From assembly GCF_023078455.1 (NCBI RefSeq), contig NZ_CP095740.1:2468001-2532000 (forward strand): a stretch of DNA of 64,000 nt, in the 5' to 3' direction. This DNA is from Luteibacter aegosomatis (GTDB lineage Bacteria; Pseudomonadota; Gammaproteobacteria; Xanthomonadales; Rhodanobacteraceae). The notes under the pieces were generated by a model that saw nothing but the letters and a program-made list of their open reading frames with translations, made no database searches and was not told the origin of the DNA. Below, piece by piece: positions 21,188 to 45,500 of this stretch. The first letter of the stretch is position 1; each line of letters starts with the position of its first letter. A program made the position numbers and the translations under genes.

Positions 21188-21814
21188 ATGAGCACGCCTC
21201 CACTCCTCACTCCCGATGACTGCGCCGTGGTGTTGGTCGATGAACAGGCGGGCCTCGCGTTCGCCGCAGGATCCCAGGACCACCAGGTACTCCGCGGCAA
21301 TGCCGTGGCGCTCGCGCGCACGGCGGTCGCGTTCGGCATCCCGGTCGTCGTCAGCACGTCGGCATCCAAGGTTTACAGCGGTCCGTTGATGCCGCCGCTC
21401 CGCGCGGTGCTCCCGGACGTCGTCCCCATCGAGCGGCGAAACATGAACCTGTGGGAAGACGACGCGGCGCGAGCGGCGGTCCTCGCCACGGGTCGCAAGA
21501 CCCTCGTGGTGGCCGGCCTCCTTACCGAGGCGTGCGTGAGCTTTCCCGTGCTTTCCGCGCTCGACGACGGTTATCGCGTCCACGTGGTCGCGGACGCCTG
21601 CGGCGGGCTCACGGTGGCGAGCCACGAGGCGGCGCTCCGTCGGCTCGAGCAGGCGGGCGCGGTGCTCACGTCGTGGCTCCAGTTCCTGCTGGAGATGCAG
21701 CGCGACTGGACGCGACATGAGACCTATGAGGCTGCGCGCGGCATCGTCGTCGACCATGGCGGCGGGTACGGCATTGGCCTCGACTACGCCCGGGACACGA
21801 TAAAGCCCACTTGA
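21188..21814 (+). CDS. Isochorismatase-fold cysteine hydrolase
   Basis: 208 residues. The catalytic triad of the family is visible: aspartate in VVLVDEQAG (D18), lysine K61 in TSASKVYSGP and cysteine C116 in GLLTEACVSFPVL. The sequence is close to YcaC-type hydrolases of unknown substrate and is paralogous to the gene at 29262-29903, with the same overall layout including FLLEMQRDWTR near the C-terminus. Cytoplasmic. It starts 90 bases after the haem protein gene and is followed by a hairpin at 21830. Confidence 0.9.
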   Translation: MSTPPLLTPDDCAVVLVDEQAGLAFAAGSQDHQVLRGNAVALARTAVAFGIPVVVSTSASKVYSGPLMPPLRAVLPDVVPIERRNMNLWEDDAARAAVLATGRKTLVVAGLLTEACVSFPVLSALDDGYRVHVVADACGGLTVASHEAALRRLEQAGAVLTSWLQFLLEMQRDWTRHETYEAARGIVVDHGGGYGIGLDYARDTIKPT

Positions 21815-21894: not shown

Positions 21895-22668
21895 TCACTT
21901 GCCTGCGGCGACCGACTCGGCGGCCTCCTCGATGACCTTGGCCACGTCCCTCGGATGCGACAGGAGCGAGACGTGGCTTGATTCGAGCACCGTGGTCTTG
22001 GCGTTCATCTGCTTTGCCGCATCGCGCTCGAGCTGTGGATTGATCACACGATCATTGGCCGAGACGATGTACCACGTCGGGTGGTTCTTCCACGCCGCGT
22101 GGGTGACCTTGTCACCGAACGTGCTGGCGGCGAGTGCGCCTTGCGTCACCGCCATGGTCCTGGCCTCGGCGCGCGGGAGATCCGGCGCGAAGTTCTCGAT
22201 CACGCCCTGCTCGGTCTGGTAGAGGAAACCGTGACCGTCGTCGCGGATGGTGCCAAGCGCCGGCGTCTTCGGATAGGCGTTGACCAGCTCACCGGCGGCC
22301 TGGCCGTCCTTGTTGGCGAAAGCCGCGACATAGACGAGCGCCGCGACTTTCGGATCGTTGCCCGCCTCGGTAATGACCGTACCCGCCCAGCTGTGGCCGA
22401 CCAGAACCACCGGAGCGGTGGCCGATTCGAGGACCTGCCTGGTGGCCGCGACGTCGGCGGCGAGCGACGTCAGGGGATTCTGGACGGCAAGGACCTTGTA
22501 CCCCTTCGCCTGGAGGAGAGGGATGACCTTGTTCCAGCTCGAGCCGTCCGCCCATGCACCGTGCACGAGAACGATGGTCGGCGTCGTGCCCTCGGCGTGC
22601 GCGCCGGTAACCGAACCGATGGTCAGCGCGGCGAATGCCAACGCGCGAGAGAGGAGATGCTTCTTCAC
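21895..22668 (-). CDS. Exported alpha/beta hydrolase
   Basis: 257 residues with a signal peptide (cleavage after TGAHA, residue 25). Compact alpha/beta hydrolase with IVLVHGAWADGSSW as oxyanion loop and nucleophile S93 in GHSWAG, and a late histidine in ESSHVSLLSHP. It is a close paralog of the unexported protein at 35614-36321 (shared VHGAWADGSSW, AVQNPLTSLA, DVAAT and GHSWAG segments), so one ancestor was given a signal peptide or lost it. Substrate unknown; this group includes salicylate-ester and pyrethroid hydrolase-like proteins. Confidence 0.9.
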   Translation of the reverse strand: MKKHLLSRALAFAALTIGSVTGAHAEGTTPTIVLVHGAWADGSSWNKVIPLLQAKGYKVLAVQNPLTSLAADVAATRQVLESATAPVVLVGHSWAGTVITEAGNDPKVAALVYVAAFANKDGQAAGELVNAYPKTPALGTIRDDGHGFLYQTEQGVIENFAPDLPRAEARTMAVTQGALAASTFGDKVTHAAWKNHPTWYIVSANDRVINPQLERDAAKQMNAKTTVLESSHVSLLSHPRDVAKVIEEAAESVAAGK

Positions 22669-25115: not shown

Positions 25116-26711
25116 CTATCGCGCGGGCGTTGACACCGATGAGGTGCGTGACCGAGGGCGGCTGGGCGCCACGGTGGAAGGCGAGGCTTCGGCCTGGATG
25201 TCCGCGCCGGCGTGGCTGAAGCGCTCGTGCTGGCGGAGGTGCTCGGCCCACGATTCGACCATGAACCATTCGACGACCCGCTCGGGATTCCCCGAGTCCT
25301 GGGTCACACCCCAGGCGTAGGCACCGTCGCGCAACCGCTCCATGGAGAATCGCTCGAGGACGGCGAGGAAGTCGGCAAGCCGCTCGCGGGCGACGTCGTA
25401 CTCGACGAGGATGAGCACGGGTCCGCGATCGTTGGCCACCGGTTCGGCGGTGAGCGGCTCCGCCCACTGGTGTGCCGAGGTCAGGTCGAGTTCGGCGGAC
25501 GGCAGCGGCATGGCGCGCATGACGAACGCCGCGACGGCGAGACCGGCCGCGCTCGCGAGTAGCGTGTAACCCACGCCCACCGCCTCGGCCAGCGCGCCCC
25601 AGCCGATGCTTCCGGCGGCCATCGCGCCATTGAACACGGTGAGGTAGACCGCCAGCGCCCTGCCCCGCACCCAGTTCGGCAGGATGCCCTGGGCGACGCC
25701 GTTGAAGGTGGTCAGCGACATGATCCATGCGCCGCCGAGCACCAGCAGCGCGACGAACGCGACGAGCTTGTCGGGAACGAGGGCCAGAACGACCATGACC
25801 AGTGCGGAGAGGAGCGCCGCACCGAGCAGCAGGGCGTCCGCGGAGCACCGCGCGCGCATCTTCGGCAGTAGCAGCGCGCCGACGATGGCACCGGCACCGA
25901 CCGCGCCCATCAGCACGCCGTAGAACCCCGCCCCGCCTTTCAGCGTGCCGCGCGCGACCAGGGGAAGGAGTGCCCACACGGCGGAGGCGAAGGCGAAGAA
26001 GACCGCCGCCCGGATGAGCACGACGTGCAGCTCACGGCTCGCCTTGGTATAGCGAAGTCCCGCCCGGAACGCCCCGAGGAAGTTTTCCGGCAGGGCCGTG
26101 TCCGCCGCGCTCTTTCGCCGCCACCAGACCAGCGCCGCGATGACGAGGAAGTAGCTGCACACGTCGGTACCGTAGGTCACGGCCGCGCCCATGCCCGCGA
26201 GAATCAGGCCGCCCGCGGCGGGGCCGATGGCACGGGAGATGTTGACGCCCAGCGAGTTGAGGGAGACGGCGTCCTTGAGTTCCGCTCGGTCGACCAGTTC
26301 GGGCACGATGGACTGCCAGGTCGGACCGATCAGTGCCGCGCCGATCCCGCCGACGAACGTCAGGGCGATGAGCGCCGCGATGCTGAGGTTGTGGGTGGCC
26401 GCGAGCATCATGAGTGTCGCGCTGACGCAGGCCAGGAGCACTTGCACGGCGATGAGGAAACGGCGGCGGTCGAGGATGTCGGACAACACGCCGGCCGGAA
26501 TCGCGAGAAGGAAGATGGGCAGCGATCCCGCCGCCTGGATGAGCGAGACGGCCGCGGGGCCACCGCCGAGTTCGGTGACCATCCAGGAACTGGCGATGTC
26601 GCGCATGAAGGTGCCGGTGTTGCCCAGCACCGTCGCGACCCAGAGGACGGCGAAGGTCGCGTGCTTGAGGGGCCTGAGACTGTCGGCCAGCCCGCCCTGT
26701 TCAGTGGCCAT
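25116..26711 (-). CDS. MFS exporter (MFS_3 type) with C-terminal ferredoxin-like domain
   Basis: 531 residues, longer than a 400-residue MFS protein. Residues 1-410 form the 12-span MFS_3 (EntS/transmembrane secretion effector) unit, starting SLRPLKHATFAVLWVATVLGNTGTFMRDIASSWM and including VGGIGAALIGPTWQSIVPELV. Residues ~425-510 form a soluble domain (GPVLILVEYDVARERLADFLAVLERFSMERLRDGAYAWGV, then NPERVVEWFMVESWAEHLRQHERFS) that looks like an antibiotic-biosynthesis-monooxygenase-type dimeric barrel. Such fusions are known in MFS_3. It overlaps the DoxX stop by 11 bases. Probable efflux of a hydrophobic product. Confidence 0.87.
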   Translation of the reverse strand: MATEQGGLADSLRPLKHATFAVLWVATVLGNTGTFMRDIASSWMVTELGGGPAAVSLIQAAGSLPIFLLAIPAGVLSDILDRRRFLIAVQVLLACVSATLMMLAATHNLSIAALIALTFVGGIGAALIGPTWQSIVPELVDRAELKDAVSLNSLGVNISRAIGPAAGGLILAGMGAAVTYGTDVCSYFLVIAALVWWRRKSAADTALPENFLGAFRAGLRYTKASRELHVVLIRAAVFFAFASAVWALLPLVARGTLKGGAGFYGVLMGAVGAGAIVGALLLPKMRARCSADALLLGAALLSALVMVVLALVPDKLVAFVALLVLGGAWIMSLTTFNGVAQGILPNWVRGRALAVYLTVFNGAMAAGSIGWGALAEAVGVGYTLLASAAGLAVAAFVMRAMPLPSAELDLTSAHQWAEPLTAEPVANDRGPVLILVEYDVARERLADFLAVLERFSMERLRDGAYAWGVTQDSGNPERVVEWFMVESWAEHLRQHERFSHAGADIQAEASPSTVAPSRPRSRTSSVSTPAR

Positions 26712-27111
26712 GGAAACGTCCCCGACGATCGAGCCAGCCCACGTAGACGAACGCCCCTGCCAGGCCGAGGTGTTCGAAGAAGCCGTTCATCATCATATCG
26801 CATGCGGGTCCCGCCGCTTCGTGCCACCAGGCGTTGGCGAGGAAATTGGCGGCGAAGGTGAACAGCGCGAGGGCGAACGCGCCGAGCCACCGCAGCTGGC
26901 CGGTCAGGATGGCCAATGAGCAGACGAGCTCGAACACGATGACGCCCGCCGCGAACAACACGGGGGGTGCCAAGCCGAAATGCCGCATCTCGCCGATGGC
27001 GGTATCGAAGTCGATGAGCTTGCAGACGGCGCCCTGGAGGTATGCCGAACACAGCGCAAGAAGCGCGAGCCACGGCACGATATCCATGCGGAGCGAGGCC
27101 GGGCGGTTCAT
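26701..27111 (-). CDS. DoxX-like membrane protein
   Basis: 136 residues from ATG 27111 (MNRPASLRMDIVPW), overlapping the amidohydrolase stop (ATGA). Four membrane segments with the DoxX landmarks: LQGAVCKLIDFDTAIGEMRHFGL near the first span, FELVCSLAILTGQLRWLGAFAL in the middle and the late FFEHLGLAGAFVYVGW. DoxX-family proteins are small quinone- or redox-linked inner-membrane proteins of uncertain function. It ends inside the MFS gene start, so all genes of this run are tightly packed. Confidence 0.88.
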   Translation of the reverse strand: MNRPASLRMDIVPWLALLALCSAYLQGAVCKLIDFDTAIGEMRHFGLAPPVLFAAGVIVFELVCSLAILTGQLRWLGAFALALFTFAANFLANAWWHEAAGPACDMMMNGFFEHLGLAGAFVYVGWLDRRGRFHGH

Positions 27112-28994
27112 ACGGCCCAGCACGCGCAACCGAGCGCGCCCCAGAAGCTCTTGAAGTCGTCGACCGGAAGCGGCGCCGCATGCGAACGCCCGTGGTCGTG
27201 CCCGTGCACCGAACAGCCGCTCGCGCATCCGCAGGCGGCTTGAGGGCGCCGCTCGGCCCCGCCGATGCGCCGCTGCTGATCCGCCCACGCCGCATAGCCG
27301 CCGTAGTCGTTGACCGGCGACCAGTCCGGCATCGCGGCCGGGACGGAACTCTCGTCGAGCGGGCCGAACGGACCGGCGGCATAGACGACTTTGCCGCCCA
27401 CCATGGTCAGCAAGGAGGTCGTACCGACGATCTCGTCTTCGGCACATGCGAAGAAGTCGCGATCGGGAACGATGAGATCGGCAAGCTGGCCTTCGGCGAT
27501 GCGTCCCTTCTTGCCCTCCTCGTTGGAAAACCAGGTGACGTTCTCGGTCCACATGCGCAATGCTTCCTCGCGATCGAGGCAATTGCGCTGCGGATAAAGG
27601 CGCAAGCCGCCCACGGTGCGGCCCGTGGTCAGCCACGCGAGGGAGACCCAGGGGTTGTATGACGCCACGCGCGTCGCGTCCGTGCCGGCGGATACCTTCA
27701 CGCCCGCGTCGAGCATCTTGCGGACCGGCGGGGTCGCCTGCGCGGCACCGATGCCGTAGCGTTCGACGAAGTACTCGCCCTGGTAGGCCATGCGATGCTG
27801 GACGGCCACGCCGCCGCCGAGTGCCGCGATGCGGTCGATCGACGCGTCGGAGATGGTTTCGGCGTGGTCGAAGAACCAGTGGATGCCGTCCAGCGGAATG
27901 TCCTGGGCGACCTTCTCGAAGACGTCCAGCGCCCGGCTGATCGTTTCGTCATAGGTCGCATGCAACCGCCACGGCCAACGGTTCTGCGCGAGGATCCGCA
28001 CCACCTCCTCGAGTTCGCCTTCCATCTCCGGGGCCATATCGGGCCGGGGCTGGCGGAAGTCCTCGAAGTCGGCCGCGGAGAAGACGAGCATCTCTCCCGC
28101 GCCGTTGTGGCGGAAGTAGTCGTCGCCCTGTTGGTAGGTGACCGATGTCGTCCAAGCGAGGAAATCGTCCTTTTCCTGCTTGGGCTTTTGCGTGAAGAGG
28201 TTATAGGCGATGCGGATGGTCAGCTGGCCGGCGTCCGACAGCTGTTGCACGACCGCGTAGTCGTCGGGCCAGTTCTGCGATCCACCGCCCGCGTCGATGG
28301 CGCCCGTGATGCCGAGGCGGTTGAGTTCGCGCATGAAGTGCCGGGTGGAATTGACCTGGTACTCGAACGGCAGCTTGGGTCCCTTCGCCAGGGTGGCGTA
28401 GAGGATGGAGGCGTTGGGCTTGGCGAGCAATAGTCCGGTCGGGTTGCCGCTGGCGTCCCGCAGGATCTCGCCACCCTGCGGATTGGGCGTGTCTTTCGTG
28501 TAACCGCACACGCGCAACGCCGCGGCATTGAGCAGCGCGCGATCGTACAGGTGCAGGATGAACACCGGCGTGTCCGGTGCGACCGCGTTGAGTTCATCGA
28601 TGGTCGGCAGGCGTTTTTCGACGAACTGGTGTTCGGTAAAGCCACCGACCACGCGCACCCACTGCGGTGGAGGCGTGATTTCCACCTGCCGGCGGAGCAT
28701 GCGCATGGCGTCGGCGAGGCTCGGCACGCCGTCCCAGCGCAGCTCCATGTTGAAGTTCAGGCCACCGCGAATGAGGTGGAGGTGATTGTCGATGAGCCCG
28801 GGAAGCACCCGGCGCCCGCCGACGTCCACCACGCGCGTCCCCGGCCCGGCCAGCGCCAGCACCTCATGGTCGTCGCCCACCTTGAGAAACCGGCCGTCGT
28901 GGATGGCCACGGCGCTGGCCGTGGGCCGACGGCGGTCGAGCGTGGTGAACAGGCCTCGGTGCAGGATGAGGTCCGGGACGGGAACGTGTGACAT
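27108..28994 (-). CDS. YtcJ-like amidohydrolase with Cys/His-rich tail
   Basis: 628 residues from ATG 28994 (GGAG upstream); the frame to 29201 is not used. TIM-barrel metal-dependent amidohydrolase of the YtcJ subgroup: RVLPGLIDNHLHLIRGG carries the H71-x-H73 metal pair, IHWFFDHAETISD and AGTDATRVASYNPW give later ligands. YtcJ proteins act on N-substituted or cyclic amides; the substrate here is unknown. Residues ~588-606 add a tail not typical of the family: CGCASGCSVHGHDHGRSH, then a hydrophobic end with CAC. This could bind a metal ion. Its start is 20 bases after the XapX gene. Confidence 0.87.
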   Translation of the reverse strand: MSHVPVPDLILHRGLFTTLDRRRPTASAVAIHDGRFLKVGDDHEVLALAGPGTRVVDVGGRRVLPGLIDNHLHLIRGGLNFNMELRWDGVPSLADAMRMLRRQVEITPPPQWVRVVGGFTEHQFVEKRLPTIDELNAVAPDTPVFILHLYDRALLNAAALRVCGYTKDTPNPQGGEILRDASGNPTGLLLAKPNASILYATLAKGPKLPFEYQVNSTRHFMRELNRLGITGAIDAGGGSQNWPDDYAVVQQLSDAGQLTIRIAYNLFTQKPKQEKDDFLAWTTSVTYQQGDDYFRHNGAGEMLVFSAADFEDFRQPRPDMAPEMEGELEEVVRILAQNRWPWRLHATYDETISRALDVFEKVAQDIPLDGIHWFFDHAETISDASIDRIAALGGGVAVQHRMAYQGEYFVERYGIGAAQATPPVRKMLDAGVKVSAGTDATRVASYNPWVSLAWLTTGRTVGGLRLYPQRNCLDREEALRMWTENVTWFSNEEGKKGRIAEGQLADLIVPDRDFFACAEDEIVGTTSLLTMVGGKVVYAAGPFGPLDESSVPAAMPDWSPVNDYGGYAAWADQQRRIGGAERRPQAACGCASGCSVHGHDHGRSHAAPLPVDDFKSFWGALGCACWAV

Positions 28995-29014
28995 GGCAAA
29001 GCTCCGGGGATGGC

Positions 29015-29257
29015 TCAGGTGGGGTCGTCGTCGGAACGGGGCGTATCGTTCTTCGAGATGGCGAAGCTCTTGCTGTGCCAGAGGCTGGCCCAGACGTCCG
29101 GATGCCCCTTCGCCCACGACACGGCCGCCTCGCCGGCGAGCATGCCGAGCAGGCCAAGGAGGGCGATCATCGGCGGCGCCGGCGAACGCACGCCGAAGCA
29201 TCCGTAGGCGATGCCGACGGCCAGTCCGAAGCCGAGCGAAATCAGATAGGGCGACAT
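29015..29257 (-). CDS. XapX-domain small membrane protein
   Basis: 80 residues. Two membrane segments (YLISLGFGLAVGIAYGCFGV and MIALLGLLGMLAGEAAVSW) separated by RSPAPP, the hallmark of the XapX domain, plus a short basic/acidic cytoplasmic tail. Function unknown; XapX proteins are commonly found next to isochorismatase-like and amidohydrolase genes, exactly as here. It starts 4 bases after the isochorismatase stop. Confidence 0.9.
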   Translation of the reverse strand: MSPYLISLGFGLAVGIAYGCFGVRSPAPPMIALLGLLGMLAGEAAVSWAKGHPDVWASLWHSKSFAISKNDTPRSDDDPT

Positions 29258-29261
29258 GGTC

Positions 29262-29903
29262 TTAGCCCGCCTCGGAAGCGTGTTCGCCGAGCGCCCACTT
29301 GGAGAAGCGCACCTGGATGCCGTACGGCGTCAACGCGCGCAGGATGTCCATCACGCCCTCGTACGTGCCCGAACGGGCCCAGTCCTGCTGGAGCTCGAAC
29401 ACGAACTGCAGCGTGGTCATCGGCACGGCGCCGGCCTGGACCATGCGCTGCACGGCGCGTTCGTGCGCTTCCACGCTCGTGTCGCCGCAGGCGTCGGTGA
29501 CGACGGTCACGTCGAAGCCTTCGCGCAGCATGTCGAGCGTGGGGAAGTTCACGCAGGCGCCCGTCCACAGACCCGCGAGCACGAAGCGCTTCCTCCCCGT
29601 GGCCGCCACGGCCTTGCGGAAGTCCTCGTTCAGCCATGAATTGATGGAGGTGCGGTCGATGACGGTCTGGCCGGGGAAAACGTCCTCGGTGACTTCCGGC
29701 ATGAAGGGGCCGGAGAAACTGTCCTTGGCGACGGTCGTCAGCACGGTCGGCACCTTGAAGAGCTTCGCGGCGCGGGCGAGGATCTGCACGTTGTCCATGA
29801 TGACCTTGCGGTCATGGCTCTGGACGCCCTGGAACATCGCCGGCTGGAAGTCGATGAGCGCAAGCGCACAGTTGTCCGGGGTGATGAGTTCGTTGAACGA
29901 CAT
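29262..29903 (-). CDS. YcaC-like isochorismatase-fold hydrolase
   Basis: 213 residues from ATG 29903 (MSFNELITPDNCALALIDFQPAM; GAGG upstream). Catalytic residues are D18 (LIDFQ), K60 (TTVAKDSFSGP) and C117 (GLWTGACVNF), as in YcaC and related octameric hydrolases. It is the first gene of the run isochorismatase, XapX, amidohydrolase, DoxX, MFS, VOC, porin on the minus strand, so the putative promoter lies in 29904-30026. Together with the amidohydrolase it points to C-N bond cleavage of an amide or imide compound, with the MFS pump and porin for traffic. Substrate unknown. Confidence 0.92.
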   Translation of the reverse strand: MSFNELITPDNCALALIDFQPAMFQGVQSHDRKVIMDNVQILARAAKLFKVPTVLTTVAKDSFSGPFMPEVTEDVFPGQTVIDRTSINSWLNEDFRKAVAATGRKRFVLAGLWTGACVNFPTLDMLREGFDVTVVTDACGDTSVEAHERAVQRMVQAGAVPMTTLQFVFELQQDWARSGTYEGVMDILRALTPYGIQVRFSKWALGEHASEAG

Positions 29904-29951
29904 GGGATGAGGCCTCGTTGATGTATCGCAGGCCGTTCCTGCGACTGGATT

Positions 29952-29967: not shown

Positions 29968-30026
29968 GCGGTGCACGAATAGAAGCTTTGGAATCCGTCG
30001 TGCGGCCGGTTTGAAAAAAAGCGCCG

Positions 30027-31343
30027 CTAGCGGAAGAATCCCCGCGCCTGCGCGATGGACACCGCGTGCGCACGGTTGCTCGCGCGCAACTTGGCCATCG
30101 CGTTGGACAGGTACTCCTTGACGGTCTCGGGAGACAGACCGAGACGGGAAGCGATCTGCTTGTTCTCGAGCCCCGCGGCGACGCCGCGGAGAACGTCGAG
30201 CTCGCGCTCGGACAGGACGTCCTCGCCCTGGAAATCGGCGAGTTGCCGGGCCACTTGCGCGTCGATGCGGTGCTCTCCGCGCTGGACCGCGCGAATGGCT
30301 TCGACGAGGTCGGTGCCCATCGAGGTCTTCAACAGGTACGCCTGCGCGCCGGCATGGAGTGCGCGACGCGCCACGCCGTCGCCGCCGAACGTGGTCACGA
30401 CGATGCTTCGGGCCGTGGGATCCAGTTGACGGATGCCCAGGATCACGCGCTCCCCGGGCATGTCGGGAAGCACCATGTCGATCAGCGTGACATCCGGGCG
30501 ATACCTGCCGAAGAGAGCGATGGCTTCCTGTCCCGTGGCCGCTTCGGCGACGACGGACACGTCATCGGAACCGGCGAGAATGGCGACGAGTCCCGCGCGG
30601 AACACCGGATGATCGTCGACGACCAGGACACGAATGGGTCGGACCGGGGCATCGGCCAGGGATGTCCGCTGACGCTGTCCCGCGGGGATGATCGGTCGTG
30701 CGGTCATGGGCGCGGCAGGTGCCTGTGATGGATAAACTTGCGTTGCATCGGACTCGTTCGTGTCGTTGAGGAAAGCGGTAGACGGCGGATCGGGGCGCGC
30801 GCCGATGTCTTCCACGCGTTTTGACTTGCGATACGAATGGGGCGTGACGCCCATGGCGGACTTGAACGAACGGGTGAAGTGCGCCTGGTCGTTGAAACCG
30901 CATGCGATGGCGATGTCCGCGAGACTCCCGGTGGTATCGGAAAGCTGGCGGCACGCGTATTCGATCCGTTTGCCATGGCGCCACCTGTGCGGGCTTTCGC
31001 CGAACGTCACCTTGAACGCGCGGCTGAAATAGCCCCTCGACAGGCGGCACGCCGCGGCGAGCTCGGTGACGGAAAGCCCGAGGTCGAGTCGCGCGAGCGC
31101 CACATCCTTCACCGTCCGGACCTGCCATGCGGCGAGACCACTCTGCGGACGCGGCGCTTGGGCGGTGATGCCTTCCTGGTGGATCCGCAACGCCTGCGCG
31201 ATGTAGTGCGCGCAAGCGTCGCGGTCCGTCGTCTCGACATCCGCCATCTGGCGCAGCGCATGGTCCAGCAGTTGCTGCACGACGCGCACCGCCGACAGGC
31301 CGTCGTCGGACGCGGCCGACGGCAACGAGGTATCGATTCGCAT
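30027..31343 (-). CDS. Fusion regulator: AraC HTH + response-regulator receiver + LuxR HTH
   Basis: 438 residues from ATG 31343; the frame is continuous with no stop between the parts. Residues ~90-175 form an AraC-type double helix-turn-helix (ELAAACRLSRGYFSRAF; DIAIACGFNDQAHFTRSFKSAMGVTP). A disordered linker of about 60 residues follows (180-235). Residues 237-352 form a NarL-type receiver with DD 243-244, phosphoacceptor D289 (TLIDM), T318 and K339. Residues ~377-434 are a LuxR HTH (LSERELDVLRGVAAGLENKQIASRLGL). The last 200 residues are clearly paralogous to the regulator at 32995-33618. Two DNA-binding domains in one response regulator is a rare architecture. No kinase is adjacent; the sensor at 42567 is a candidate. 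Confidence 0.9.
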   Translation of the reverse strand: MRIDTSLPSAASDDGLSAVRVVQQLLDHALRQMADVETTDRDACAHYIAQALRIHQEGITAQAPRPQSGLAAWQVRTVKDVALARLDLGLSVTELAAACRLSRGYFSRAFKVTFGESPHRWRHGKRIEYACRQLSDTTGSLADIAIACGFNDQAHFTRSFKSAMGVTPHSYRKSKRVEDIGARPDPPSTAFLNDTNESDATQVYPSQAPAAPMTARPIIPAGQRQRTSLADAPVRPIRVLVVDDHPVFRAGLVAILAGSDDVSVVAEAATGQEAIALFGRYRPDVTLIDMVLPDMPGERVILGIRQLDPTARSIVVTTFGGDGVARRALHAGAQAYLLKTSMGTDLVEAIRAVQRGEHRIDAQVARQLADFQGEDVLSERELDVLRGVAAGLENKQIASRLGLSPETVKEYLSNAMAKLRASNRAHAVSIAQARGFFR

Positions 31344-31405
31344 AGAGCCACCATCTTCACAGCCAGAAGGCGGATCGGATGCTAGCCGCCCGCTTCGCCG
31401 GATTG

Positions 31406-31423
31406 ACCCCCTGTATGGGGGGG
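31406..31423. promoter_or_regulatory. CCCCC-N5-GGGGG inverted repeat, candidate regulator site 1
   Basis: ACCCCCTGTATGGGGGGG lies 63 bases upstream of the fusion regulator start and 165 bases before the porin start. A nearly identical sequence occurs at 42016-42032 (ACCCCCAGGATGGGGGG). The dyad form and repeated use suggest a binding site for one of the response regulators; inference only. Confidence 0.5.
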
Positions 31424-31477: not shown

Positions 31478-31587
31478 ACCGGCGCGCATGCGTTTGGTCC
31501 GAATGTGACCTTCGCCATCGCATGGGAGGCCAATCGCGTTCGCCGGCGCTTTCGCATACTGGGGCACCTATCGCCGAGCGCCCTTCC

Positions 31588-32943
31588 ATGCGCCTTCGAC
31601 CATCGCCGGTTCGCCCTCGCCATTTGCCCACGCGCATTCGTCGCCAAGCGATGTGGGCGGGTTTGCTGCTGTCGGCATGGTCCGTGGCGTGCAACGCGAA
31701 CGACGTCGTTGCCGGCGCGCAGATGGACGGTTCGGTGCGCCTGTACGACTACCGGCGCATGTATGCCTCGCCGGCGATGCCCGATGCGTCCGCACTCGCC
31801 GCCGCCCTGCTCATCAATCTGCGCAGTGGCGATGCGGGAGGTGTGTCGGTAGCCGTTTCGCTTGCCTATGCGAATGCCCTCGGCACGCGCCATTCGCCCG
31901 TCGACCGCATCGACGTGACGCTGATGGGCAGGAAGAACGCGCTCGGCGCCGTCAGCCAGGCCTACGTGCAATACCGCGCGTCGGGTTGGACGCTTCGCGC
32001 GGGCGACCAGTACCTCGACACGCCCTGGCAAGGCGTGAGCGATTCACGGGTGCTGCCGGCCGCATACCGCGCGCTCAGCGCCCGGTTCGATGCGGGGCAA
32101 GACGTGTCGTTCGAATTCGCACGGACCTTCCGATGGAAGAGCCGCACGTCCGACCGATTCTTTTCCGACAATCTCTACTACCCCACGCGGTACGACGGCG
32201 ACCCGCTGTATGGGGGCAACGCGTCGTTGCCGAGCGACGCGAGAGCCTACGGCGGCACATGGCTCGTCGGCTCGACCTACAGGCACGGGATGTTTTCCGG
32301 CCAGACATGGCTCTATGACTTCACGCGTTTCGCCCGGATGGCGTATACCGACGGCACGCTGACCTTCCCCGCCCTCCACGGTATGACCCCTTTCCTCTCC
32401 GGGCAGCTCGTCGAGGAATGGACCACCACCGACAACACCCTCGTGGACACCGGCACGAAGATACTGGGCGTGGCCGGTCGCCGGGTGCGTAGCGAAGTGT
32501 CGGGCATCCAGGCCGGCTTCCGGATCGAGCGCACCCGGTTCGACGTGTCGTGGAACCGGGTGGCCCGCCAAGGCGGCGACACCGTCGGCGGAGGCGCGCT
32601 CATCTCCCCGTTCACCGCCACCTACGCCACGGACCCCCTCTACACCACCTCGATGCTGCGGGGCCTCGTGGAACAGGGGCCGGGATGGGCGTGGAAGGCG
32701 AGGCTCACCCAGGCGCTCCTCGGCAACCGCCTCCAGGTGGTGGCGGCCTATACCCAGTACAGGACCCTGTACCGGGGCGACAGCCACGACGTCTACCTCG
32801 ATCTCGTCTACCGGTTCACCGGACCGCTCCATGGCCTGCAATTGCGCAACCGATGGGAGCGGTCCGTGGGCGGGGCGAACCACCTCAATCCGGGCAACCG
32901 CCCGTTTTCGTACAACCGGGTGATGATCTCGTACGCGTTCTGA
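31588..32943 (+). CDS. OprD-like outer-membrane porin
   Basis: 451 residues from ATG 31588 (MRLRPSPVRPRHLPTR...); a later ATG (MWAGLLLSAWSVACNA) could give a shorter signal sequence. The mature part is a beta-barrel: repeated amphipathic strands (SQAYVQYRASGWTLRAGDQYLDTPW, LSARFDAGQDVSFEFARTFRWKSRTS) and a C-terminal phenylalanine (YNRVMISYAF), the usual barrel-insertion signal. Parts such as VLPAAYRALSARF resemble OprD-type substrate-specific channels. It is divergent from the fusion regulator and followed 51 bases later by a NarL-type regulator, so its expression is likely under two-component control. Confidence 0.8.
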   Translation: MRLRPSPVRPRHLPTRIRRQAMWAGLLLSAWSVACNANDVVAGAQMDGSVRLYDYRRMYASPAMPDASALAAALLINLRSGDAGGVSVAVSLAYANALGTRHSPVDRIDVTLMGRKNALGAVSQAYVQYRASGWTLRAGDQYLDTPWQGVSDSRVLPAAYRALSARFDAGQDVSFEFARTFRWKSRTSDRFFSDNLYYPTRYDGDPLYGGNASLPSDARAYGGTWLVGSTYRHGMFSGQTWLYDFTRFARMAYTDGTLTFPALHGMTPFLSGQLVEEWTTTDNTLVDTGTKILGVAGRRVRSEVSGIQAGFRIERTRFDVSWNRVARQGGDTVGGGALISPFTATYATDPLYTTSMLRGLVEQGPGWAWKARLTQALLGNRLQVVAAYTQYRTLYRGDSHDVYLDLVYRFTGPLHGLQLRNRWERSVGGANHLNPGNRPFSYNRVMISYAF

Positions 32944-32994: not shown

Positions 32995-33618
32995 ATGTCA
33001 CAGCAAGCCATCCGCATCATCGTCGTCGACGACCATCCCCTCTTCCGGGCCGGCGTGGTCGCGATGCTGGCCGCCGAACCGGACATCCTCATCGTCGGTC
33101 AGGCCGGTACGGGGGCGGACGGCATCGAGGCGTACCGGTCCATGCGGCCGGACGTCGCCGTCGTCGACCTCAAGCTGCCGGACATGGACGGCGACGAGGT
33201 CGTCGGCGCCATACGGAAGATCGAGCCCATGGCCCGCGTGATCGTCCTGACCACGTTCGGCGGAGACGCCGCGGCGCGCCGCACGCTTGCCGCCGGTGCC
33301 CAGGGTTACCTCCTGAAGACCTCGCTCGCCAACGACCTCGTCGGTGTCGTCCGCGCGGTCCATGCCGGCCAGCACCGCGTCTCGGCGGAAGTCGCCAAAC
33401 GCCTTTTCGAGTACCGCGGCGACGAGCCCCTGACCGAGCGGGAGCTTTCCGTCTTGCGCGGCGTGGCCGCCGGCCTGGAAAACAAGCAGATCGCCCGGCA
33501 CCTGGGCATCGCCGCCGACACGGTCAAGGAACACCTCTCGCACGCCATGGCGAAGCTCCGCGCGACGAACCGGGCGCATGCGCTGTCCATCGCGCTCGCG
33601 CGCGGATACCTCGCCTGA
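32995..33618 (+). CDS. NarL/FixJ-type response regulator
   Basis: 207 residues. Receiver with DD 12-13, phosphoacceptor D58 (VAVVDLKLPDMDGDEV), the T of LTTFGGD and K in GYLLKTSLA; LuxR helix-turn-helix at ~145-200 (LTERELSVLRGVAAGLENKQIARHLGIAADTVKEHLSHAMAKLRA). It shares long blocks with the last 200 residues of the fusion regulator (TTFGGD, GVAAGLENKQIA, NAMAKLRA-type helix, NRAHA), so the two are recent paralogs. It lies behind the porin on the same strand. No histidine kinase is adjacent; the HisKA_3-type sensor at 42567-45500 is the nearest match in class. Confidence 0.95.
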   Translation: MSQQAIRIIVVDDHPLFRAGVVAMLAAEPDILIVGQAGTGADGIEAYRSMRPDVAVVDLKLPDMDGDEVVGAIRKIEPMARVIVLTTFGGDAAARRTLAAGAQGYLLKTSLANDLVGVVRAVHAGQHRVSAEVAKRLFEYRGDEPLTERELSVLRGVAAGLENKQIARHLGIAADTVKEHLSHAMAKLRATNRAHALSIALARGYLA

Positions 33619-35421: not shown

Positions 35422-35613
35422 CGCGCGTCGACCGCAGCCGGAGGAGCGTGCAGCGTATCGATGCCGGCCACGCGGAAATAGCACGATTGGATCGTCCGCC
35501 GACGCGGCGCGAGGGGGATATTGAACGATCGTCCGCACCGCCTTCCTGCAAGCTCCGCACAACCGCTTGCCCTAGCTTGGCGGTACCTTCATCGCCACCG
35601 AAAGGACCTTGCC

Positions 35614-36321
35614 ATGAGCACCCCGTCCAACGTTTCACCCACGATCGTTCTCGTCCACGGCGCCTGGGCCGACGGCTCGAGCTGGAGTGCCGTCATTCCC
35701 AAGCTGCTGTCGAAGGGCCTGAAGGTCGTGGCCGTGCAGAACCCCCTCACCTCGCTCGCCGAGGACGTCGCCGCGACGAAGCGCGTCATCGATTTCGTCG
35801 AGGGGCCGGTCGTCCTCGTCGGTCACAGCTGGGCCGGTTTCATCGTCACCGAAGCGGGCGAGGATCCGAAGGTGAAATCGCTGGTGTACGTGTCGGCCTT
35901 CTCGGGCAACGCGGGCCAGACCACGGGCGAACTCGTCGGCAAGTACCCTGCCCCGCCGGCGCTCGGCGGCATCCGCGAAGACGGCAACGGCTTCGTCTAT
36001 CTGTCCGAGCAGGCGTTTATCGACGACGTCGCCCAGGACCTGTCGCCGGATACCGCGCGCCTCCTTGCCGCCACGCAGGGGCCGCTGGCGAAGAGCACCT
36101 TCGGCGATGCCCTGACGAAGACCGCATGGCGCACGCGTCCGTCGTGGTTCGTCGTCTCGACGAGCGACCGCGCGGTATCCCCGGACCTGCAGCGCGACGC
36201 GGCGACGCTGATGGGCTCGACGGCGACGGAAGTGGCATCGAGCCACATGTCGCTCATCTCCCACGCCGACGAGGTCGTCGACGCCATCGTGCAGGCCGCC
36301 GAAGCGGCCGCACGGGACTGA
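35614..36321 (+). CDS. Alpha/beta hydrolase, cytoplasmic paralog of 21895-22668
   Basis: 235 residues from ATG 35614 (AAAGGA 7 bases upstream); the upstream frame to 35521 is not used. It has no signal peptide. IVLVHGAWADGSSWSAVIP and GHSWAGFIVTEAGED (S72) are nearly identical to the exported protein encoded at 21895-22668, and a late histidine (SSHMSLISH) completes the triad. It is divergent from the epoxide-hydrolase-like gene with 192 bases between the starts, and followed by a strong terminator at 36336. Substrate unknown. Confidence 0.92.
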   Translation: MSTPSNVSPTIVLVHGAWADGSSWSAVIPKLLSKGLKVVAVQNPLTSLAEDVAATKRVIDFVEGPVVLVGHSWAGFIVTEAGEDPKVKSLVYVSAFSGNAGQTTGELVGKYPAPPALGGIREDGNGFVYLSEQAFIDDVAQDLSPDTARLLAATQGPLAKSTFGDALTKTAWRTRPSWFVVSTSDRAVSPDLQRDAATLMGSTATEVASSHMSLISHADEVVDAIVQAAEAAARD

Positions 36322-42189: not shown

Positions 42190-42498
42190 ATGGCAGCGGA
42201 CATCGTTATCAGGGATGCGCCCGACGAAGGGCGTTTCGTCGCGGAGCTCGGCCGCCAGAGCGCGAGCGCGTGGTACGAACGCGGACCGGGCATGCTGCGT
42301 TTCGTCCGCGTCGATATTTCCCAGAGCCTCATCGCCGACGGGGTGGGCATCCAGCTGATGCGGGTGGCCATGTCACAGGCGCGGGCGCAAGGCCTGCTGG
42401 TCGAACCCGCCTGCGACTTCGTGGCCAACTACATGCGCAACCATCCCGATACGCAGGACCTCCTGACGAGCGAGGGTTGGCGCCTACTCCGCCGATAA
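42190..42498 (+). CDS. Short GNAT-type N-acetyltransferase (YjdJ class)
   Basis: 102 residues from ATG 42190; the frame to 41980 upstream is not coding in style. The small Gcn5-related fold of this class is shown by MLRFVRVDISQSLIADGVGIQLMRVAMSQARAQGLLVEPACDFVANYMRNHPDTQDLL, where the C-x-F-V-x-x-Y-x-x-x-HP segment is the family signature. Known members use acetyl-CoA and an unusual active-site cysteine. It precedes the sensor kinase gene by 68 bases on the same strand. Confidence 0.85.
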   Translation: MAADIVIRDAPDEGRFVAELGRQSASAWYERGPGMLRFVRVDISQSLIADGVGIQLMRVAMSQARAQGLLVEPACDFVANYMRNHPDTQDLLTSEGWRLLRR

Positions 42499-42566
42499 GG
42501 CATGCATCGCTGGACCTCCCCGTAAGCCATGGCCACAATCGGTCGAAACCGTCCTGGGGAACACCG

Positions 42567-45500
42567 ATGCGTCGACCGCTGAAGCACCTGCTGGCCATCC
42601 CTGGCCTGCTCTTGCTCCTGTACGCATCCACCGTCCTTGCGGACGCGCCGTCGGCCCCCGCGTATCGTCCCATCCGGCAATGGATCCATCGTGCCTTCCC
42701 CGCGAGCGAGGGGGCGCCGGCCGGCGTCTGGGCGATGACGCAGGATGCGGATGGCTACCTCTGGTTCGGCGGTCCGACGGGTCTCTTCAAGTTCGACGGC
42801 GTCACCTTCGACGGCAGTCTCAGCCACCTGTTGCCCCATCCGCAGATCATGGCGCTGCTCGCCACGCCGGACGGCACGTTGTGGGTAGGCGATCGGACCG
42901 GCTACATCACGCGCATCGCCGACGGCAAGGCGCAGGTGTCTCCCGGGAAGGAAGGCGCCGGCTCGGTCCTGTCCTTCGCCCGAACCAGGGACGGCACGCT
43001 GTGGGCCGTTCGCACCAACGGGCTCTACCGTTTCGACGGGATCGCCTGGCAACGCTTCCCGTCGACGGAACCCGGACCGCGGGAATACATCCAGCAGGGC
43101 TTCGTCACACCCGACCAATCCGTGTGGCTCCTGCGCGAGCACAGCGCGCTACGGAAACCGCCCGATGCCTCGACGTTCGAACTTCGGACGGTCGCCGACT
43201 ACCGCGCGGCGCAACTCGGGCGTCCCGGCGGCATGTGGCGGCCGGATAACCAGCTCGCCGACGAGAGCCTCGACGACGAAGGCGCCCTGTGGTGTGGGAC
43301 GAACGCGGGCGTGGTGCGCATCGTCTGGCCGGGACGGGGCCCGGCGACGGATCCGCCGATCGTCGAAACGTACGGCGAAAAGGACGGTTTGACGGGCATA
43401 GCCGCCATGGCCGTCATCAGGGATCGTGAAGGCACGATCTGGGTAGCGACGCCCAAGGGCATCGACCAGTTCCGCAAGGGGCGCTTCGACCCCGTCGATC
43501 TGCCTCCGGACACCTACAAGCCGGCCATCGCGACGGATGGCCTGGACCATCTCTGGGTCGCCGCCGAAAACGGCGTGTTCGAGTTCGGTGCCACCCGGAA
43601 GGCGTGGCCCCAGGCCGGCAAGCAGGTGAACGCCATCGCCAGGGCCCCGGATGGCAGCTTGCTGATGACCTCGGACAAGGGCCTTTTGCATATCGACGGA
43701 ACGGAAGTGACCGTCGCGCCCCTGCCCGATGCCATCACCGGCATGCCGAGGCAGGTGCGCGCCCTTGCCCAGGCACGCGACGGCTCGGTGTGGATCGCCT
43801 TTCGGCAGGCGTTCCGGTGGGCGAAAGGCACCATCGAGACCTTGGGCCAGGACGAGGGCCTTCCCGGAAAGGGAAAGAACCTCCGCGCGATCGCGCGGCG
43901 CGCGGATCATGGCTTGTGGCTGGGATACGACGACGACACGGTCGCCGCCATCGAGGATGACGGAACACGGGCGGCCGTCTACACGCAGTCATCGGGCATC
44001 GGCGTCGGGCAGGTCACCGCCCTGTGGCCGCGGCGGGACGGCGTATGGGTGACCGGCGACCATGGCGTGCAGTTCCTCGCGCCGGGACGACCGACGCGCA
44101 CGCTCCTGTTCGCCGACGGTCGCGCGGTGCGGGTGGGCACGGGCATCCTCGAGCAGCCCCATGGCGACCTCTGGATCAACGCGTCCGACGGACTCCATCA
44201 TGTCTCCGCGGCCGACATGGCACGGTGGTGGGCCGCCCCGGAAAAACCCGTGCCGGCGCAGCACTTCGACGAACGCGACGGTTGGCCTGGCCTGCGCGAT
44301 ACGGTCCCCGCTCCCTCGCTGATCGCCGGTGTCGGCGGTCGGCTCTGGGTGGCATCCGATACCGGCGTGGCCGGGCTCGACCCGGCGAGCCTGATACGAA
44401 ATCCGCGCGTGCCGGTGGCGACCATCCTCGGCGTCAACGGCGAACCGCTTGCGCCTGACGCGGACCTCGCCGCCGGCACCACCCGTCTCGAATTTCGCTA
44501 CACGGCCCCCGTCCTCGCCATTCCCGAGCGCGCCAGGTTCCGCTATCGGCTCTCGCGGGTGGACGAGGGGTGGCGGGACGTGGGCAACGTGCGGGAGGCG
44601 ACCTACACGAACCTCGCGCCCGGCGACTACACCTTCGAAGTCGTCGCCGCCAACGAGGATGGCGTCTGGTCCGCCTCGCCGGCCCGCCTGTCCTTTCGCA
44701 TCGCGCCTTTCTTCTATCAATCGGCGTGGTTCGCGCTGCTGTGCGCCGCCGTCGCGATCGCCTTGCTCTATGCGCTTTACGCCTGGCGACTCCGGGTTCT
44801 CGGCACGGTCTTGCTGGCCCGGGTCATGGAACGCGAACGCATCGCCCGCGAACTGCACGACACGGTGCTCCAGGGGCTTCACGGCGTGCTCCTCTACGTT
44901 CGCGTGGCGGCCAACTCGCTCAAGGACGGTACCGTCAGGGATCATCTCGAGCGCGCCCTGCGCGTCGCCGAACAGGCCATGGCCGAAGGACGCCAGCGCA
45001 TCGTCGACCTGCGCACGGCACCCAGGCCGTCGACGTCCCTGGTCATGCGCTTGCGCGCCGCCCTGGACGAATGCCTCGCCGACACGGGCATCGAGGGTGT
45101 CGTCGCCATCGACGGCGAGGAAAAGCCCATCAGCTCGGAAGCCGAGGAAGATCTCAATGCCATCGTCCTGGAACTCGTCCGCAACGTGCGCAAGCATGCG
45201 AAGGCCAACTCCGTCTGCGTCAACGTCAGGTTCGGCAAACTGCATCTGGACATCGAGGTGAGCGACGACGGCATCGGGCTGGTGCCGGGCGCCACGACCA
45301 AGCCGCTATCGTTCGGATTGCAGGGCGTACGGGAGAGGACCGCACGCTGGTCGGGCCACTTCACCATCGGTCCGGGGGAGCCCACCGGCACGAGCGCATT
45401 CGTCACCCTTCCCGCGATCGCGGTCTATGCGTCGGATGCGGGACGTCGCCGATGGCTGCGACTGCCCTGGAAACCCGCGAACCGGCGGCTTCACGATTGA
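42567..45500 (+). CDS. Reg_prop / Y_Y_Y sensor histidine kinase
   Basis: 977 residues from ATG 42567 (GGGGA upstream). A signal peptide is followed by a periplasmic double beta-propeller of Reg_prop repeats (WAMTQDADGYLWFGGPTGLFKFDG, LLATPDGTLWVGDRTG, VIRDREGTIWVATPKGIDQF and others, ~50-620), a Y_Y_Y domain (~638-714), one span (~715-740), a HisKA_3 dimerisation helix with H764 in RELHDTVLQGLHG, and HATPase_c (N box near 870, GIG near 901). HisKA_3 kinases pair with NarL-type regulators, but none is adjacent; the ones at 30027 and 32995 are ~10 kb away. It probably senses an extracellular compound in the periplasm. Confidence 0.95.
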   Translation: MRRPLKHLLAIPGLLLLLYASTVLADAPSAPAYRPIRQWIHRAFPASEGAPAGVWAMTQDADGYLWFGGPTGLFKFDGVTFDGSLSHLLPHPQIMALLATPDGTLWVGDRTGYITRIADGKAQVSPGKEGAGSVLSFARTRDGTLWAVRTNGLYRFDGIAWQRFPSTEPGPREYIQQGFVTPDQSVWLLREHSALRKPPDASTFELRTVADYRAAQLGRPGGMWRPDNQLADESLDDEGALWCGTNAGVVRIVWPGRGPATDPPIVETYGEKDGLTGIAAMAVIRDREGTIWVATPKGIDQFRKGRFDPVDLPPDTYKPAIATDGLDHLWVAAENGVFEFGATRKAWPQAGKQVNAIARAPDGSLLMTSDKGLLHIDGTEVTVAPLPDAITGMPRQVRALAQARDGSVWIAFRQAFRWAKGTIETLGQDEGLPGKGKNLRAIARRADHGLWLGYDDDTVAAIEDDGTRAAVYTQSSGIGVGQVTALWPRRDGVWVTGDHGVQFLAPGRPTRTLLFADGRAVRVGTGILEQPHGDLWINASDGLHHVSAADMARWWAAPEKPVPAQHFDERDGWPGLRDTVPAPSLIAGVGGRLWVASDTGVAGLDPASLIRNPRVPVATILGVNGEPLAPDADLAAGTTRLEFRYTAPVLAIPERARFRYRLSRVDEGWRDVGNVREATYTNLAPGDYTFEVVAANEDGVWSASPARLSFRIAPFFYQSAWFALLCAAVAIALLYALYAWRLRVLGTVLLARVMERERIARELHDTVLQGLHGVLLYVRVAANSLKDGTVRDHLERALRVAEQAMAEGRQRIVDLRTAPRPSTSLVMRLRAALDECLADTGIEGVVAIDGEEKPISSEAEEDLNAIVLELVRNVRKHAKANSVCVNVRFGKLHLDIEVSDDGIGLVPGATTKPLSFGLQGVRERTARWSGHFTIGPGEPTGTSAFVTLPAIAVYASDAGRRRWLRLPWKPANRRLHD

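Follow-up and report, generated by a model that had tools for sequence, protein, structure and literature searches.

A gene of Luteibacter aegosomatis, located in the window (the whole stretch of 64,000 nucleotides analysed here), encodes a polypeptide in which an AraC-type DNA-binding domain precedes a NarL-type response regulator. This arrangement raises three questions: is the fused gene real, from which genes was it built, and what could a protein carrying two DNA-binding domains do at its own locus?

The fusion gene and its rarity

The gene and its parts are as follows.

30027..31343, minus strand: fusion gene, 438 aa, with AraC HTH, linker, receiver and LuxR HTH (open reading frame and Pfam)
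30825..31061, minus strand: AraC-type HTH (HTH_18, residues 95-173; Pfam)
30642..30809, minus strand: linker, residues 179-234, a putative former intergenic spacer, fast evolving (alignment with G161, AlphaFold)
30705..30707, minus strand: internal ATG, residue 213 (MTARP; alignment with G161)
30291..30629, minus strand: receiver, residues 239-351, with D243, D244, D289, T317 and K339 (Pfam, alignment with VraR)
30051..30221, minus strand: LuxR/GerE HTH, residues 375-431 (Pfam)

The frame runs from the ATG at 31343 to a stop ending at 30027 and encodes 438 aa with no internal stop. All three domains score well above their Pfam cut-offs (HTH_18 3e-23, Response_reg 1.6e-22 and GerE 5.9e-20). The AraC part, with PF12833 at residues 95-173 and PF00165 in two stretches, constitutes a two-HTH AraC DNA-binding domain. 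The receiver belongs to PF00072 and keeps the acidic pair, the phosphorylated aspartate, the threonine and the lysine, and the C-terminal HTH matches PF00196 at residues 375-431. The open frame and the Pfam matches thus bear out the proposal of the initial annotation that one polypeptide combines an AraC HTH, a receiver and a LuxR HTH, and hence two DNA-binding domains. The phosphorylation residues that it listed also stand (D243, D244, D289 and K339), except that the switch threonine is T317 and not T318, also a threonine, according to the alignment with VraR. No kinase domain is matched by Pfam in the fusion protein (hereafter P0001), nor do residues 1-83 have any Pfam match at E 0.01; a sub-threshold HTH_31 match covers residues 84-108, ahead of the AraC HTH. 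The initiation codon (MRIDTS...) is conserved with G161 and is preceded in each genome by a Shine-Dalgarno-like stretch (duplex of -8.1 kcal/mol). The start of the 438-aa protein is supported by these features, and a 555-aa open reading frame is an upstream extension of it.

The AlphaFold model (58-row alignment, mean pLDDT 74.3, pTM 0.48) does not settle the contacts between domains. Its pLDDT is mostly above 90 in the receiver and LuxR parts and about 50-85 in the AraC part, and falls below 50 in the linker at residues 183-208 and 213-216. The residues preceding the AraC HTH are modelled as helices only, with low confidence. In Foldseek, the protein is best matched by regulators of the NarL type, among them LiaR, VraR and RcsB.

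A search for proteins of AraC-REC-LuxR architecture, as suggested by the initial annotation, was carried out on about 5.8 billion proteins (E threshold of 1e-3, 8000 candidates scored) and gave 142 matches. Among the 120 of them that were listed, only three combine an AraC HTH, a receiver and a GerE domain: P0001 itself, P0002 (96% identical) and P0003 (84% identical), the latter two fused in the same way and encoded on contigs 5.1 and 7.6 kb long. P0002 and P0003 are known as proteins only, and the DNA of the fusion from a single genome. The window provides the one full-length match found in the 23 Luteibacter genomes (its own included), as it does among the matches listed for 197 genomes of the family (at most eight candidates scored per genome). 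In 369 genomes of the class, no other full-length match was obtained at E <= 1e-46 (at most four candidates scored per genome). A search of contigs for exact peptide patterns, which reaches close relatives only, confirmed 258 loci; the 80 of them that were kept had halves, and none had a full-length copy. Searches of an open-licence library on the architecture, the genus, the palindrome and propeller kinases listed no paper on the fused protein, as judged from titles and abstract starts. The initial annotation had considered that homologs with halves always separate would speak against the fusion; the halves are indeed separate in every other genome in which both were found, and are joined in P0002 and P0003.

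Relatives of the locus and origin of the fusion

The genes flanking the fusion were used to compare the locus between genomes.

32995..33618, plus strand: RR2, a NarL-type response regulator encoded by its own gene and paralogous to the C-terminal half of the fusion (Pfam, alignment, tree)
31522..32943, plus strand: OprD-like porin, divergent from the fusion, its true start probably further in (sub-threshold Pfam match, 17.1 vs a cut-off of 25)
29262..29903, minus strand: isochorismatase-family hydrolase, with which the downstream cluster begins (NCBIfam: YcaC as the best match, below cut-off)
27108..29201, minus strand: amidohydrolase (Amidohydro_3; Pfam), the start of this frame being probably placed too far upstream
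26701..27126, minus strand: DoxX-family membrane protein (Pfam)
25116..26711, minus strand: MFS_3 transporter (Pfam)

The last ~204 residues of the fusion (hereafter RR1, like their unfused relatives) share 59% identity with RR2. In trees of 24 and 15 rows, one clade (support 100/99) groups RR1 of the window, P0002, P0003, G161, G178 and P0004, with RR1 of G010 as its sister (85/73) on a long branch, and a second clade (100/99) groups RR2 of the window, G161, G178, G047, G033, G076 and G101. As the RR1 clade includes unfused members, the RR1/RR2 duplication is, according to the tree, older than the fusion. The tree does not settle the branching order of the window, P0003 and G161 within RR1, and that of the AraC proteins is poorly resolved. 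The initial annotation had proposed that a duplicated response regulator was fused to an AraC-type protein; the duplication is supported, and the second step can be refined, as RR1 would first have been a separate gene behind AraC and would have been fused to it later.

Thirteen stretches, taken from 11 other genomes, were compared by mapping the proteins of the window onto them. G033, G076 and G101 harbor an AraC gene alone, a divergent RR2 and the isochorismatase cluster; G197 resembles them, but the kinase (see below) sits between AraC and RR2. AraC is followed by RR1 as a separate tandem gene in G161, and the two are likewise separate on contig 1 of G010, with an acetyltransferase-like ORF between them. 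In G178, AraC is gone from the locus and RR1 is kept behind the AraC promoter. The fused stage is represented by the window, P0002 and P0003. Other layouts include AraC-porin-RR2 with no cluster within the stretch fetched (G047 and the second G010 locus) and an AraC-regulator tandem without the cluster (G196); G062 is a more distant relative, and the AraC match is absent from the stretch examined in G112. The stand-alone AraC genes of Luteibacter, found at the same locus in most cases, encode proteins 47-79% identical to the AraC half of the fusion. Eight of the 11 end at most about 10 residues past the HTH, the others having tails of about 23 (G010 contig 1), 28 (G062) and 61 residues (G196).

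Several further features of these loci deserve mention. An open frame of 583 aa in G010 that includes both halves was considered as a second fusion and rejected, as its translation placed the halves in separate frames, divided by a further ORF. This ORF (L132:7256-7561, minus strand) encodes a small GCN5-type acetyltransferase (PF14542). Inspection by eye of the translated RR1 next to it (L132:6570-7292, minus strand) shows Ala in place of the second acidic residue and of the switch threonine, and this protein seems to have partly lost its phosphorylation signature. In the window, G178, G047 and one of the G010 loci, the porin separates RR2 from AraC or from the position that AraC once occupied, and it has no match in the stretches examined of G161, G033, G076 and G101; it is, by this comparison, a variable piece of the locus. 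The window also carries a second isochorismatase-family gene (21188-21814, 45% identical to 29262-29903) and two alpha/beta-hydrolase paralogues (21895-22668 and 35521-36321, 59% identical).

The junction differs from that of G161 by several changes. In the alignment, the TGA stop of the G161 AraC gene reads CGC in the window, one extra base is found in the window and in neither G161 nor G178, and the TAA stop that lies ahead of RR1 in G161 reads CAA. This TAA is missing in G178 too, so it may be specific to G161. The spacer aligns poorly, so the position of the extra base is approximate, the difference in frame between the two halves of G161 being plain. With the AraC stop gone, one base added and the second stop gone, the spacer would therefore have become the linker. 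Since most stand-alone AraC proteins end near the HTH and the halves are in different frames in G161, the fusion is most simply viewed as the derived state. A frameshift introduced by sequencing or assembly would also join two genes, and a one-base indel relative to G161 is what such an error could leave; this indel lies among other changes, two stops being also missing. Furthermore, P0002 and P0003 come from other contigs and are fused alike, and the genome consists of one contig listed as 100% complete. An artefact is thus extremely improbable, and this reading was rejected on account of the two other fused proteins and the several separate changes at the junction.

The fused proteins differ mainly by their linker. 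Compared to the window, P0002 differs at 13 of the 56 linker columns (1 gap), 4 of the 178 AraC positions and none of the 204 positions of residues 235-438; the corresponding counts for P0003 are 27/56 (9 gaps), 10/178 and 24/204. The dN/dS ratios relative to G161 are 0.155 for AraC, 0.071 for RR1 and 0.047 for RR2 (dS 0.73-0.93), and both halves are under purifying selection.

The fusion might nevertheless have brought little new function, the full-length protein working for the most part either as an AraC regulator or as RR1, with the internal start at 30707 still supplying RR1. The internal ATG aligns with the sole ATG, GTG or TTG that G161 has from the upstream stop to 96 bases past it, and, as judged from this alignment, this codon must be the start of RR1 in G161. 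The initial annotation had taken the lack of a ribosome site at the internal ATG as an argument against two separate proteins. This argument does not hold, as the predicted ribosome-site duplex is equally poor at the internal ATG and at the RR1 start of G161 (values of -2.6 and -2.5 kcal/mol for these two codons, in either order); the RR2 start is likewise at -2.5 and that of RR1 in G178 at +0.7. Since the RR1 start of G161 and the RR2 start are no better, a second product limited to the response regulator is possible. The fast evolution of the linker also agrees with a fusion of little consequence. However, purifying selection acts on both halves, and the frame is kept in all three fused proteins despite the divergent linker, including P0003, which has nine linker residues fewer. 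A fusion of little consequence is rather unlikely. Taken together, these data show that the fusion is real and that both its halves are under selection, and comparison with its relatives gives good support to its being derived and young.

Candidate operators, sensor kinase and proposed circuit

Five other features of the window are relevant to the regulation of the locus.

31406..31423, minus strand: P1, candidate operator, an 18-bp near-palindrome CCCCCCCATACAGGGGGT located 62 nt before the fusion ATG (conservation)
31379..31384, minus strand: TAGCAT, a putative -10 box separated from the operator by 21 bp (conservation)
29976..29996, minus strand: P2, block GGATTCCAAAGCTTCTATTCG located before the isochorismatase gene, candidate site of the AraC half (conservation)
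29926..29944, minus strand: TCGCAGG-N5-CCTGCGA inverted repeat preceding the isochorismatase ATG (alignment)
42270..45500, plus strand: candidate sensor kinase with Reg_prop, Y_Y_Y, HisKA_3 and HATPase_c (domain matches)

The P1 near-palindrome ACCCCCCATACAGGGGGT (with variants), followed by exactly 21 bp and TAGCATC, is found in 12 of 13 promoters, i.e. those of 12 AraC genes (window included) and that of RR1 in G178, the exception being G062. In the nine AraC promoters for which the match starts at an ATG, 62-64 nt separate the end of the G run from this codon; for G010b, G196 and G062, it starts within the gene, so that their distances are not comparable. The exact core CCCCCNTACAGGGGG occurs at nine sites in eight of the 23 genomes, each at this promoter, vs none for the reversed control. 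Relaxed searches were less specific: the looser motif CCCCNNTNNNGGGG has 9+14 matches in the genome of the window vs 11+7 for the control; the 18-mer with two mismatches is, in the 197 genomes, no commoner outside this promoter than the control; and the core with two mismatches has three matches in the window alone, a number reached by 3 of 100 shuffles. Weight is given to the exact matches across genomes. In the family-wide search, ACGCCCAATACAGGGGGA and the closely similar ACGCCCAGTACAGGGGGA also turned up repeatedly in several further genera, where no link to the locus was seen.

P1 is present in relatives that lack RR1 and is thus independent of the fusion. If TAGCAT is the -10 box (-12 to -7), the center of P1 lies at -42.5. 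It could alternatively be bound by the AraC half or by another regulator (autoregulation), the LuxR half acting elsewhere. The exact P1 sites all precede an AraC gene or, where AraC has been lost, RR1, and none is found before a separate RR2 unless RR2 is divergent from AraC, as expected from autoregulation. However, AraC-family sites are usually asymmetric, which counts against binding by the AraC half. Moreover, G178 keeps P1 before RR1 without AraC, although its other AraC gene, 22 kb away, has its own P1. Finally, P1 is a near-palindrome that would be placed as is the lux box of LuxR, a 20-bp inverted repeat centered at -42.5 (PMC3376562). Binding of P1 by the AraC half or another regulator is thus unlikely, and the spacing and near-symmetry of P1 suggest that it is probably a LuxR-type activator site recognized by RR2 and RR1.

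The P2 pattern TTCCAAAGNTTCTATTNG is found exactly once in each of six of the 23 genomes (the window, G161, G033, G076, G101 and G178), upstream of the isochorismatase gene. The block is common to the eight loci compared, being weaker in G010 and G197. With two mismatches, the 23 genomes give eight matches, which add G112 and G200, vs 20 for the reversed control, so that weight can be given only to the exact matches and to where they lie. In the window, the sole match with up to three mismatches is that at 29976-29996, and a match of this kind was absent from all 100 shuffles. From these data, we infer that P2 is a candidate site of the AraC half. In G047, P1 is present without the P2 block, and no isochorismatase cluster was found in the stretch examined. 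The inverted repeat at 29926-29944 is kept in several aligned loci and is possibly an RNA hairpin.

The candidate sensor kinase has matches at E <= 1e-100 in 15 of the 23 genomes. In eight genomes (including that of the window) the identity is at least 38%, and in seven of these eight the kinase lies 0.1-19 kb from the regulator, only 88 bp away in G197; in the eighth, G010, the distance is 140.8 kb. These linkages are not independent events, as synteny is inherited, and in G062 and G196 the linked regulator is more distantly related to RR2. G076, G101 and G178 keep AraC and RR2, with no close linked kinase at this identity, which speaks against the partnership, as does the distance in G010.

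The following model can be drawn, to which we give an even chance. The ancestral locus would have consisted of a short AraC-type gene devoid of any recognizable cupin sensor domain and of RR2. In some species, a second copy, RR1, would have come to lie between AraC and the isochorismatase-amidohydrolase-DoxX-MFS cluster. In the lineage of the window, the AraC stop would have been lost and the reading frame displaced by one extra base; as the stop before RR1 would have been absent or lost as well, an AraC-linker-RR1 protein would have resulted from this recent fusion of adjacent regulators. The propeller-type sensor kinase would phosphorylate RR2 and the RR1 part of the fusion; the phosphorylated LuxR domains of both would activate P1 at the palindrome centered near -42.5, and the AraC part would activate the isochorismatase cluster from P2. 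The former cascade, in which the regulator would switch on AraC and AraC would switch on the enzymes, would thus have its two steps partly merged into one molecule, with the AraC part coupled to a phospho-switch absent from its stand-alone relatives. The assignment of domains to sites, the partnership with the kinase and activation rather than repression are inferred. More specifically, the fusion might bind both promoters of its own locus, the LuxR domain on P1 and the AraC domain on P2, ~1.4 kb apart and possibly with looping, which is rather unlikely.

Comparison with known systems

The split, tandem and AraC-less relatives would preserve the stages of this evolution; if so, the effect of the fusion on the circuit could be measured stepwise. 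With a candidate site for each half in its own locus and earlier stages still living, the locus makes testable the question whether the fusion of two steps of a cascade changes its logic or speed or is merely tolerated.

The receiver and the LuxR HTH of the fusion (residues ~235-438) are like those of NarL/FixJ-type regulators (structures of VraR, LiaR, NarL and RcsB), and its phosphorylation residues align with those of VraR. However, these regulators have two domains with the receiver first, whereas the fusion has an AraC part of about 180 aa and a linker of ~56 residues before it. The stand-alone AraC genes of Luteibacter share the promoter layout of the fusion in all 11 cases but G062 and, unlike it, lack a receiver. 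A receiver and an AraC HTH also coexist in the REC-AraC regulators P0074 and P0118 of the protein search, which we take to be of the YesN type; in these, AraC follows the receiver, whereas the order in the fusion is AraC-receiver-GerE. The sensors of Bacteroides hybrid two-component systems are often of the propeller type. In these hybrids, as described in PMC11253607, an AraC-type domain is tied to a receiver as in the fusion, but the kinase belongs to the same polypeptide; the fusion has no kinase, another domain order and a second DNA-binding domain. Classical members of the AraC/XylS family have a separate cupin ligand-binding domain, for which the fusion has no Pfam match. To our knowledge, bacterial response regulators have as a rule one DNA-binding domain per phospho-switch. 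The fusion is thus a rare combination built from known families.
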